A DNA stretch of 13,780 bases. Origin: Flavobacteriales bacterium (lineage in GTDB: Bacteria > Bacteroidota > Bacteroidia > Flavobacteriales_E > Vicingaceae). Each line of letters begins with the position of its first letter. The stretch's first letter is position 1. Position numbers and translations under genes: made by a program. Under the pieces are notes generated by a model. The model searched no databases and was not told where the DNA came from. It saw only the letters and a program-made list of their open reading frames with translations. The stretch covers positions 1 to 13,780 of the forward strand of contig JAJCYN010000508.1 in assembly GCA_029262915.1 (NCBI GenBank). Direction: 5' to 3'. Below are positions 8,912 through 10,563 of this stretch, in pieces.

Positions 8912-8929
8912 TATGTTAATAATAAATTT

Positions 8930-9029
8930 AATTTACCTACGCCAGCATTATCTGGATCAGGTTTATTTTCCTATTCTTATAGAAAAAATGGGTATAATCT
9001 CAGCCTGAAAAGTAAGGCACCCCAATGAG
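8930..9029 (-). ncRNA. TPP riboswitch (THI element)
   Basis: Read on the minus strand, the conserved THI-box blocks occur in order. They are GGGGTGCC (9023-9016), CTGAGA (9003-8998) followed by ATACCC, ACCTGATCC (8962-8954), and GCTGGCGTAGG (8946-8936). The variable part between ATACCC and ACCTGATCC is a short AU-rich hairpin. The aptamer binds thiamine pyrophosphate and would lower expression of the receptor that begins 60 bases downstream at 8870. Confidence 0.95.
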
Positions 9030-9035
9030 ATAATG

Positions 9036-9064
9036 CAAATGTAAAAATTAAATGAACTTATCAA
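9036..9064 (-). promoter_or_regulatory. Promoter of the riboswitch and receptor transcript
   Basis: On the minus strand, TTG (9064-9062), an 18-base spacer and TACATTTG (9043-9036), an exact TAnnTTTG element. Transcription would start near 9031, right at the 5' edge of the aptamer (9029), as expected for a riboswitch leader. The promoter overlaps the last codons and stop (9050-9048) of the kinase fusion gene, so the receptor is a separate transcription unit. Confidence 0.65.
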
Positions 9065-9866
9065 TTATTTCTTTACACTTTTTTATTCGAGTAAGAACAT
9101 CACCAGAAATAACATAATAAGTGAGTTGATGTTTTTCAAGAAGTTTTTTATAACTCTCAAACAAACGTTTTCTATCTGCTAACTTTGGATGTTCTCTTAA
9201 GACGTCCTCTTCCCACTCAATATCAATGGCACACAAAAAGTAGATTTTACCTTTCCCTTTTTTTAAATAGTCATTAATCCATTTGATTTCTTGGTTGTAT
9301 TTTTCCTTTATCCAAATGGCATAAACCGTTAAATCTGTGTCTAAAAAAGTCAGTTGCTCTGCTAAGTTTTCCTCTTGATTCATTTGGCCTCTTGCCATAA
9401 TTAAAACATCTTTCAAATCGTAGGGCCGATTAAGGTCTTCTAAATATTCTCTGGCATATTCTTTAACAAAGGTGGTATTGTATTCCTTAGCTAATAAATT
9501 TGCTAAAGTTGTTTTTCCAGAAGATTCTGGTCCTGTTATGACAATTTTCTTAAAAAGAATGTCATCCTGAGCCTGTCGAAGGATAGAATTCTTCGACAAC
9601 TCTATTAATAAATCATAATCCTCATTAATTAACGCTTCTTTCTTTTTCCTCGACAACCCTTTTATTTGTTTCTCTTTTTCGATTGCTTGATTAATGTCAT
9701 TATAACACTCAGACCAAGTCAATTCCAACGGCCGTCTTTTAAAAACATAAGAATTTGGGTCATCACTACTTTGATGTTCATTAAATCTTTTTTCTAAATC
9801 ATTCGTTACGCCTGTATAGTAAGAATCATCAGAACATTTAAGAATATATACGTAGTAATATTTCAT
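9048..9866 (-). CDS. GIY-YIG nuclease domain fused to a NadR-like kinase domain, joined by a translated repeat
   Basis: Residues 1-90 form a small GIY-YIG domain (YVYILKCSDD, then YYTGVTNDLEKRFNEHQ, with R27 and a conserved Glu in AIEKEKQIKG), like the UPF0213/YhbQ single-domain nucleases. Residues 95-103 (ILRQAQDDI) are the translation of a 23-base dispersed repeat at 9582-9560. From 107 to 272 there is a P-loop kinase domain like the ribosylnicotinamide kinase part of NadR, with Walker A GPESSGKTT (112-120), FVKEYAREYL, FLDTDLTVYAIW and HPKLADRKRLF. It follows the PnuC-family gene by 112 bases filled with the same repeat. Its place beside YkoF-like and TPP-controlled genes makes thiamine a likelier kinase substrate than nicotinamide riboside, but this is inference. 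The kinase part has no ATG, GTG or TTG of its own at the joint. Whether the nuclease part is active is unknown. Confidence 0.88.
   Translation of the reverse strand: MKYYYVYILKCSDDSYYTGVTNDLEKRFNEHQSSDDPNSYVFKRRPLELTWSECYNDINQAIEKEKQIKGLSRKKKEALINEDYDLLIELSKNSILRQAQDDILFKKIVITGPESSGKTTLANLLAKEYNTTFVKEYAREYLEDLNRPYDLKDVLIMARGQMNQEENLAEQLTFLDTDLTVYAIWIKEKYNQEIKWINDYLKKGKGKIYFLCAIDIEWEEDVLREHPKLADRKRLFESYKKLLEKHQLTYYVISGDVLTRIKKCKEIIDKFI
9560..9599. repeat. REP-like repeat doublet inside the fusion gene
   Basis: The full repeat unit is 9560-9582, which starts TGTCATCCTGAGCC and ends TGTCGAAGG. It is followed by a half copy in the opposite sense (CTTCGACAA, 9591-9599), so TGTCGAAG and CTTCGACA form an 8-bp stem around 9 bases. 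The 23 bases recur exactly, inverted, at 9898-9920. On the minus strand the doublet is translated in frame as residues 90-103. Confidence 0.9.
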
Positions 9867-9897
9867 AGGAAAATGTAAAGATATGATAGTTTTTTAC

Positions 9898-9958
9898 CCT
9901 TCGACAGGCTCAGGATGACAAAACTAACAACCCTTTTTCACACTGAACTTGTCGAAGT
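9898..9958. repeat. REP-like repeat doublet upstream of the fusion gene
   Basis: Positions 9898-9920 are the exact inverse of the 23-base repeat at 9560-9582. A diverged copy in the opposite sense follows at 9939-9958 (CACACTGAACTTGTCGAAGT). The pair can form a stem of CTTCGACAGGCTCAG with CTGAACTTGTCGAAG, 13 of 15 matching. It occupies the gap between the transporter stop (9979) and the fusion gene start (9866) and may also affect read-through between them. Confidence 0.85.
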
Positions 9959-9978: not shown

Positions 9979-10563
9979 TTAGACTCTTATCACATTTAAT
10001 TTCTTCCATTGCAAATAACCATAAACAGCAATAACCGAATAAGCTACCATCAACAAAGCATAAATTTCTAATCCTCTACTAAAATAAAGGTAAGTGGTAA
10101 CAGTATCTATCACTATCCAATAAATCCAATTTTCTATCCATTTTTTAGTAGTTAAATAAGTAGCTATAAAACTAAAAATAGTAGTAAATGAATCTATCAT
10201 TGGTCTTTCCGACTCTTCAAAAAATGAGGTTAGAACATAATAAAGTCCCATTGAAAAAACTATTCCAACCCCAATGATAAAAAGGTGAGTTAGCATTTTT
10301 CTTTGATAAACTTCTGCTTCATTTTTTTGATTCTTCCAGTTGATCCAACCATAAATTCCAGCCAACACATAAAAAATATACAGAACTGCTTCTGCATATA
10401 GTTTAGCATAAATCACAAAAAGAGCAATACTCAACAAAGAACCCAAAATGCCAAAAATCCAACAAGAAATTTTGTTTTTTGCAGCTAAAACAACATAGAT
10501 AATTCCAAGAATTACAGCCACAATTTCTAATAGTAAAGCAATATTATTAGATACCCAAGTCAC
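9979..10563 (-). CDS. pnuC: PnuC-family inner-membrane vitamin transporter, predicted thiamine (PnuT-like)
   Basis: The 194 residues contain about seven hydrophobic segments, as in the PnuC/PnuT family, which moves nicotinamide riboside or thiamine by facilitated diffusion and relies on a kinase for trapping. Family motifs are KNKISCWIFGILGSLLS (29-45), YAEAVLYIFYVLAGIYGWINW (56-76), KWIENWIYWIVIDTVTTYLYFSRGL (141-165) and YGYLQW (181-186). The start is GTG at 10563; no in-frame ATG lies nearby, and the frame overlaps the end of the YkoF-like gene by 17 bases, which implies translational coupling. The PnuC family is certain. Choosing thiamine rests on the overlapping YkoF-like gene and the nearby TPP-regulated receptor; nicotinamide riboside remains the alternative because the kinase resembles NadR. 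Confidence 0.9.
   Translation of the reverse strand: MTWVSNNIALLLEIVAVILGIIYVVLAAKNKISCWIFGILGSLLSIALFVIYAKLYAEAVLYIFYVLAGIYGWINWKNQKNEAEVYQRKMLTHLFIIGVGIVFSMGLYYVLTSFFEESERPMIDSFTTIFSFIATYLTTKKWIENWIYWIVIDTVTTYLYFSRGLEIYALLMVAYSVIAVYGYLQWKKLNVIRV

Follow-up and report, generated by a model that had tools for sequence, protein, structure and literature searches.

Small GIY-YIG nuclease genes bracketed by YGTC-tagged REPs as a candidate RAYT-independent REP system

In RAYT systems (REPtrons), the gene for a Y1/HUH tyrosine transposase lies between REP units with tagged ends, the tag being GTAG, and the same repeats occur across the genome as solo copies and dimers. The GIY-YIG fold is found in free-standing homing endonucleases, namely I-TevI and the Seg proteins. 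A further superfamily, the CGTC-tagged REPs, whose tag varies between CGTC and TGTC, was described by Di Nocera et al. (2013; PMC3733652), and the portions of that article available to us report no dedicated transposase and no known enzyme for these repeats and contain 0 occurrences of GIY-YIG. Word searches of the accessible text of PMC12306157 and PMC5896051 also returned "GIY" 0 times, and the accessible part of the literature searched, which included few subscription papers and lay outside bioRxiv, held no link between GIY-YIG enzymes and bacterial REPs. The only solved relatives found by sequence were the UPF0213 proteins PDB 1zg2 and 1ywl (E 1e-6 and 1e-5), which are likewise single-domain GIY-YIG proteins and whose molecule names mention no repeats.

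Here we analyzed a stretch of 13,780 nt from a Flavobacteriales bacterium, referred to as the window, together with its relatives. We lean towards the reading that small GIY-YIG nucleases and REPs constitute a second, RAYT-independent REP system, with an enzyme fold unrelated to that of RAYT/REPtrons, and that the cassette in the window is an autonomous member of it. The locus shares with I-TevI and the Seg proteins the catalytic fold and the character of a small selfish nuclease gene, but no intron or intein was seen, dispersed REPs bracket the gene, and there is no defined cognate gene target. It shares with REPtrons the nuclease gene between units of a dispersed REP family, the tagged ends, and the solo copies and dimers across the genome, as far as these are described in the available parts of PMC3733652, but its enzyme is of the GIY-YIG and not the Y1/HUH kind, so that no covalent tyrosine intermediate is possible, and its tag is CGTC/TGTC instead of GTAG. 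The relevant features of the window are as follows.

9048..9866, minus strand: fused ORF of 272 aa, with a GIY-YIG domain (residues 3-76), a repeat-encoded linker SILRQAQDD and a kinase domain (residues 107-260)
9639..9860, minus strand: GIY-YIG nuclease domain of clade A3 (PF01541 match)
9560..9584, plus strand: outer REP-like unit, TGTC tag at its outer end, in frame within the fused ORF
9896..9920, minus strand: inverted unit lying upstream of the GIY-YIG start; its TGTC tag faces outward, and it differs by one base (AGGGT)
9937..9957, minus strand: further diverged copy of the window repeat, 3 mismatches
9560..9920, minus strand: cassette of 361 nt, repeat - GIY-YIG - inverted repeat
9048..9548, minus strand: kinase part (AAA_28; NadR ribosylnicotinamide-kinase-like); the TTG start of relatives, overlapping the pnuC stop, is gone
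9979..10563, minus strand: PnuC-family transporter (PF04973, 164 bits), abutting the kinase in at least 7 relatives

On the minus strand, the window carries a thiamine-binding-like ORF, the PnuC-family transporter, and the 272-aa fused ORF. The GIY-YIG domain scores 61.7 bits against PF01541 (gathering cut-off 22.6), and the positions that we take to be catalytic (two Tyr, Gly, Arg, His, and Glu) are present; the columns invariant among 13 clade B sequences (Y4, Y15, G17, R25, H29, and E62) form a pattern that is also readable in the window protein. Between its 25-nt repeats, the cassette has an interior of 311 nt, compared with 310 nt in three cassettes of subclade B1. A candidate TPP riboswitch at 8917-9033 on the minus strand (45.9 bits, below the Rfam gathering score of 54.3) sits upstream of a TonB-dependent receptor and not of the pnuC-kinase genes.

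An earlier note on this DNA had described an exact 23-nt inverted pair, and 9560-9582 and 9898-9920 do match exactly; extension to 29 nt gives 93% identity. Its doublet of repeats on each side was borne out on the right, where the partner lies at 9937-9957 with 3 mismatches, but on the left no partner unit beside 9560-9582 was found at up to 6 mismatches, and the locus has three repeat places only. The likeness that the note saw on the left is probably coding similarity, because the GIY-YIG coding region ends with 9583-9606, which encodes ELSKN, and LSK recurs at this place in many clade A homologs. The left copy of the repeat is itself read in frame and supplies part of the linker SILRQAQDD. 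The window repeat is dispersed over 47 places on 39 contigs (up to 3 mismatches in the 2.76-Mb genome), with 0 places for the reversed-pattern control. The left unit, TGTC-ATCCT-GAGCCTGTCGA-AGGAT, folds into a 5-bp stem with an 11-nt loop (z -0.38) and leaves the TGTC tag unpaired, while the right unit takes another fold (z -0.81) without the 5-bp stem, because one base differs (AGGGT). Alone, the window repeat is a weak hairpin at best.

Compared with the CGTC-tagged REPs, as characterized in the parts of PMC3733652 available, both window units begin with the unpaired kind of tag (TGTC) and the repeat has many dispersed copies, but folding of both units did not yield the 8-9-bp stem with a 4-5-nt loop. 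We therefore call them REP-like and place them outside families 1-4 of that superfamily. Several other families in our data come closer, with the 8-9-bp stem and 4-5-nt loop (L153, L176, and Bradyrhizobium), and the likeness extends to the CGTC/TGTC tag, an A-T stem base, head-to-head dimers, a CCA tail in many cases, and alphaproteobacterial and Bacteroidota hosts.

The earlier note had also proposed that the cassette moved in as a unit, and the relatives bear this out. The pnuC stop overlaps the TTG start of the kinase in the same-genus relatives L040, L041, and L043, and the two genes overlap or abut in L039, L042, L046, and L047 as well; in none of these seven is there a GIY-YIG gene or a repeat between them. 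In the window, the overlap is lost, and read-through from GIY-YIG leads into the kinase. A kinase match is present in 40 of the 60 genomes (own included), in some other relatives at a different place (e.g., L044 and L048-L050), and no GIY-YIG-kinase fusion lacking repeats occurs among the kinase loci read in relatives. Judged by this comparison of gene order, the window cassette is an insertion between pnuC and the kinase.

The genome of the window contains seven PF01541 matches, six of them in small genes and one in a 602-aa frame that is probably UvrC, judged by its length. Read by eye, all six small genes have repeat units on both sides, and these are of five kinds, one of them common to L005 and L007. 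The flanks form an exact 26-nt pair in L007, a 12+20-nt pair in L004, a 12-nt pair of the L007 type in L005 (whose locus is cut by the contig end), and diverged units in L003, the frame of which is broken by a stop. The inverted flank score reaches at least 16 in three of the five testable loci (L001, 18; L002, 25; L007, 26) and falls below it in L003 (15) and L004 (14), with L005 left out at its contig end. The B1 nuclease of this genome (L007 = L284, G000:C472, 2966-3325) has lost the YxG glycine that is present in G001 and G010, and is therefore probably dead, though its REP arms are intact.

Taken literally, the proposal that such genes would lie beside the window's repeat failed, as only one of the seven GIY-YIG matches of this genome is near it, because every subclade of the nuclease goes with a repeat type of its own and there is not one repeat for one family. 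Placement must therefore be tested within subclades. Comparison of the window repeat with all GIY-YIG genes, as a refutation, was dropped once the flanks of the other genes showed five repeat kinds around six small genes.

In our survey of 60 genomes (the window's own and 59 relatives), at least 149 small GIY-YIG matches were identified in 125 loci, and clades A, B, and C were cut by hand on a midpoint-rooted FastTree phylogeny. Those of clades A and B are bracketed by repeats of the CGTC/TGTC-tagged REP kind. Of the 149 matches, 107 were kept for the flank-match test (multi-hit loci, of which there were ten, one large frame, and short flanks were left out), and an inverted match of at least 16 between the 220-nt flanks was present in 51 of these 107 loci vs. 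28 of 2346 control positions in the same loci, the direct match in 69 vs. 96. Neighboring genes of 90-330 aa in the survey loci gave such matches in 0/40 (inverted) and 3/40 (direct). In counts by clade, which like the neighbor-gene counts used 141 matches (36 A, 45 B, and 60 C), inverted or direct matches of at least 16 flank 28/36, 41/45, and 44/60 genes of clades A, B, and C, and inverted matches alone 21, 30, and 8; the direct matches of clade C are in good part tandem arrays and tRNA fragments. Neither kind of match was present in 8/36 clade A and 4/45 clade B genes.

The units around these genes have a recurring anatomy: YGTC, a stem starting with A, a loop, the other half of the stem, and CT or CCA; in the cassettes read, the tags point outward from the gene. 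A strict detector (YGTCA plus a 5-bp stem; 142 of 149 matches kept) found such hairpins on both sides of 22/45 clade B, 3/36 clade A, and 0/61 clade C genes, compared with 3/827 control positions. Clade A units are often imperfect in the stem and so are missed by this detector. Matches on either side (A 16/36, B 28/45, and C 14/61, nine of the latter from one tandem array; control 112/827) mean little. L153 and L176 are flanked by canonical CGTC REPs (8-bp stem, 5-nt loop, z -4.65), and so are Bradyrhizobium genes, whose units have a 9-bp stem, a 4-nt loop, and a CCA tail (z -4.77).

The repeat type follows the nuclease. Across 79 clade A/B matches with at least 60 aligned residues (2457 pairs, different genera only), protein identity and flank similarity were correlated (Mantel r 0.472), a value reached by 0 of 2000 permutations, the best of which gave 0.081. 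When the flanks were shifted outwards by 300, 600, and 900 nt, r fell to 0.058, 0.066, and 0.051, which is not zero (6, 9, and 28 of 1000 permutations reach these values). Since the correlation is almost gone 300 nt outwards, the shared unit is the gene with its repeats and not a conserved neighborhood. The window-type motif lies on both sides of 7/12 A3 loci and 0/67 other loci, and on one side also of 5/11 A1, 1/9 A2, and 1/15 B2 loci. Other subclades have their own motif on both sides (A2 6/9, B1 6/10, B2 5/15, B3 4/7, and B5 2/4), and the B4 motif as written is found in 4/11 loci on one side only. These motif counts are descriptive, as motifs and reference loci were chosen after viewing the same data; the Mantel test is free of such choice. 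As far as flank comparisons can tell, the repeat type is specific to the nuclease subclade. The suggested link between nuclease and repeat thus holds in the sense that this kind of nuclease accompanies this kind of repeat across genomes, and not as one repeat tied to one family.

Clade C has a different address. A tRNA gene lies within 250 nt of its small GIY-YIG genes at 28/46 loci vs. 0/79 clade A/B loci, and in 23 of the 28 a part-copy of that tRNA (score of at least 18, a score that has no random control) lies on the far side of the gene. Where the tRNA is upstream (18 loci), the copy ends at the last base of the tRNA in 17; where it is downstream (five loci), the copy begins at base 1 in three. 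This layout looks as if a mini-element enters tRNA genes and restores them. The tRNA-adjoining loci include L093, L108, L114, L117, L118, L122, L126, L130, L139, L141, L142, L144, L152, L155, L170, L171, and L177, among others. Beside tRNA-Met, clade C units are repeated in tandem, with 10 copies every 457 nt in L126 (G023:C9:906073-910392) and 8 copies every ~375 nt in L118 (G026:C2:183601-186426).

The bracketing extends well beyond the relatives of the window. A genome collection was scanned with subclade B4 (a narrower alignment, the first wide one being too diverse), and the best 80 of at least 559 confirmed relatives were compared, minus L203, which has a short flank. In this sample of one subclade, a flank match of at least 18 was found in 66/79 loci vs. 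24/1470 control positions, and an inverted match of at least 20 in 47/79 vs. 0/1470; 13/79 loci have no flank match of at least 18. Neighboring genes gave matches of at least 16 in 0/21 (inverted) and 2/21 (direct), or 0/61 and 5/61 when pooled with the survey. By record titles, and with phyla assigned as we presume them, the bracketed loci are spread over about ten phyla: repeats are present in Bacteroidota, Bradyrhizobium and other Alphaproteobacteria, Nitrotoga, Smithella, Margulisbacteria, Omnitrophota, Patescibacteria, a Dehalococcoidales MAG, Atribacteria, Planctomycetota, and Melioribacter. Records without a match of at least 18 include a Marinimicrobia MAG, two Chloroflexi MAGs, and Legionella and Rickettsiales records.

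The same repeats also occur dispersed and without the gene. Eight solo B1 stretches, picked as close pairs in G001 and G010, are head-to-head dimers with spacers of 10-18 nt that differ in sequence. The autonomous B1 form has the identical two-arm layout plus 310 nt carrying the gene and occupies one orthologous site in three species; its arms are identical within each genome and at 24-25 of 25 positions between species, while the interior is 78-81% identical. The gene-free form, REP - short spacer - REP, could be ancestral to the cassette or derived from it.

The proposal that repeat number tracks GIY-YIG presence applies to the B1 type, with a fitted threshold, and only loosely to the window's own type. 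At least six B1 repeat copies are found in 6/6 genomes with a B1 nuclease (at least 140 bits) vs. 5/54 without (Fisher p 9e-6); the threshold is fitted, as five of the six positive genomes supplied the profile and their repeats the pattern, so that only G010 is independent, and the test is uncorrected for shared ancestry. Among the five nuclease-less genomes that reach this copy number, G035 has two broken nuclease pieces beside such repeats. G039 has 59 B1-type copies and no B1 nuclease of at least 140 bits, only relatives of 94-119 bits. For the window type, copy number and nuclease are associated among the matches listed (p 0.0003 for A3, 0.0025 for A1 or A3), but the unrelated A2 nuclease, taken as a control, also gives p 0.02, and the link is therefore weak. 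Three genomes have window-type copies and no A3 nuclease among the matches listed (G001, 95; G050, 29; G054, 26).

The GIY-YIG gene of Bradyrhizobium frederickii sits between two dimers of about 105 nt each. Searching that genome with a 1.5-kb query yielded 66 further matches (40 of 372 candidates scored), of which 64 fall within these dimers and the other 2 within the gene itself. The gene and its flanking dimers are found at a common orthologous site in eight Bradyrhizobium species. Purifying selection on this nuclease is strong, with dN/dS of 0.022 (36 pairs, mean dS 1.21), and 0.062 in a second family (45 pairs). The dimers themselves turn over, and the occupant of a fixed site (a dimer of one family or another, a half, or a remnant) varies from species to species: one intergenic site (18 of the 30 fetched loci displayed) holds a GIY-linked, a CGTCATTGCGAG-type, or a GTAG-type dimer (by letter), depending on the species, and a second (30 loci displayed) two families, both together, or remnants. 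The solo-dimer sites compared in Bradyrhizobium included no clean empty site with a target duplication. At one address, TGTC and GTAG REP kinds replace each other; L343, L344, L349, L355, L357, L358, and L360 have a GTAG-type dimer (by letter) where B. frederickii has a TGTC-type dimer. At about 1807-1871 of L243, from one Bradyrhizobium species, a 65-nt insert splits a REP loop beside the GIY-YIG gene; it is absent from the near relative L250 (95% identical).

These patterns suggest that the nuclease acts on the repeats, spreading or maintaining them. The mobile unit would be a YGTC-tagged REP, the nuclease gene, and an inverted REP, or the gene between two REP dimers. The nuclease may recognize the REP hairpin of its own family and cut its own REP near the YGTC tag, and new copies would then arise through host break repair or through replication from the freed ends. 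GIY-YIG enzymes are, to our knowledge, not known to form covalent DNA intermediates, and for this reason copying by host repair or replication is proposed instead of strand transfer of the Y1 type.

The main and strongest rival, which we nevertheless consider unlikely, is homing into REP dimers, in which a GIY-YIG parasite cuts dimers and inserts between or beside their arms, and the REPs are a landing site moved by something else. The B1 geometry is attractive here, as the solo REP - 10-18 nt - REP of the eight stretches and the REP - 310 nt - REP of the cassettes have equal orientation; such insertion is classical GIY-YIG behavior, and the clade C relatives resemble insertions at tRNA genes. 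However, homing alone does not predict that genomes with a B1 nuclease are richer in B1 repeats (6/6 vs. 5/54 with at least six), the Bradyrhizobium gene is flanked by whole dimers on both sides and not by split halves, and the Y1 searches revealed no other mover of these REPs. That many solo REP dimers stay gene-free is compatible with the REP-system and homing models alike. It is also conceivable, although quite improbable, that a nuclease that once spread the repeats now serves the host, for example by trimming REP hairpins, or resolving them, at the DNA or transcript level. The strong purifying selection, the common orthologous site in eight Bradyrhizobium species, and the B1 site common to three species would fit such a domesticated role, but a selfish element, at least in Bacteroidota, is indicated by broken nuclease copies (L003, L374, L375, and L376), by the presence of several families in one genome, and by dimers that differ between species at a single site.

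Because REPs do gather at intergenic hotspots, the repeats and small GIY-YIG genes might simply collect in the same permissive sites, an explanation to which we attach very little probability: the repeat type tracks the subclade across genera and this signal is almost gone 300 nt away, neighboring genes have inverted matches of at least 16 in 0/61 cases (direct 5/61), and no clade C gene of these genomes has YGTC units on both sides (0/61). Scarcely credible is the reading of these repeats as ordinary RAYT REPs, moved by an undetected Y1 transposase with the GIY-YIG gene incidental. In its favor, a Y1 match is present in 42 of the 60 genomes searched, and the MAG of the window is 72.6% complete; against it, no Y1 (RAYT-type, PF01797) match was found in that MAG, and among relatives YGTC units lie on both sides of 0/23 Y1 loci and on either side of 1/23. 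These 23 loci, of 30 fetched (seven short ones left out) and drawn from a longer list, do have flank matches of other kinds at a score of at least 18 (inverted 6/23, direct 6/23). The available parts of PMC3733652 agree with the lack of Y1 linkage for CGTC REPs.

Returning to the favored reading of a GIY-YIG REP system, its widest form is in our view evenly balanced between right and wrong: single-domain GIY-YIG nucleases may be the missing dedicated enzymes behind the spread of YGTC-tagged REPs across about ten phyla, by a route of break and repair that RAYTs cannot take, and with clade C they may belong to a general class of mobile elements reduced to one domain, in which every clade has a genomic address of its own. 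If a GIY-YIG REP system exists, REP systems have at least two origins, based on nucleases of unrelated fold, and the repeat-encoded tails or fusions of small GIY-YIG proteins, such as the kinase fusion in the window, would be explained. CGTC/TGTC-tagged REPs are widespread in bacterial genomes, and a named small nuclease family makes their origin directly testable.
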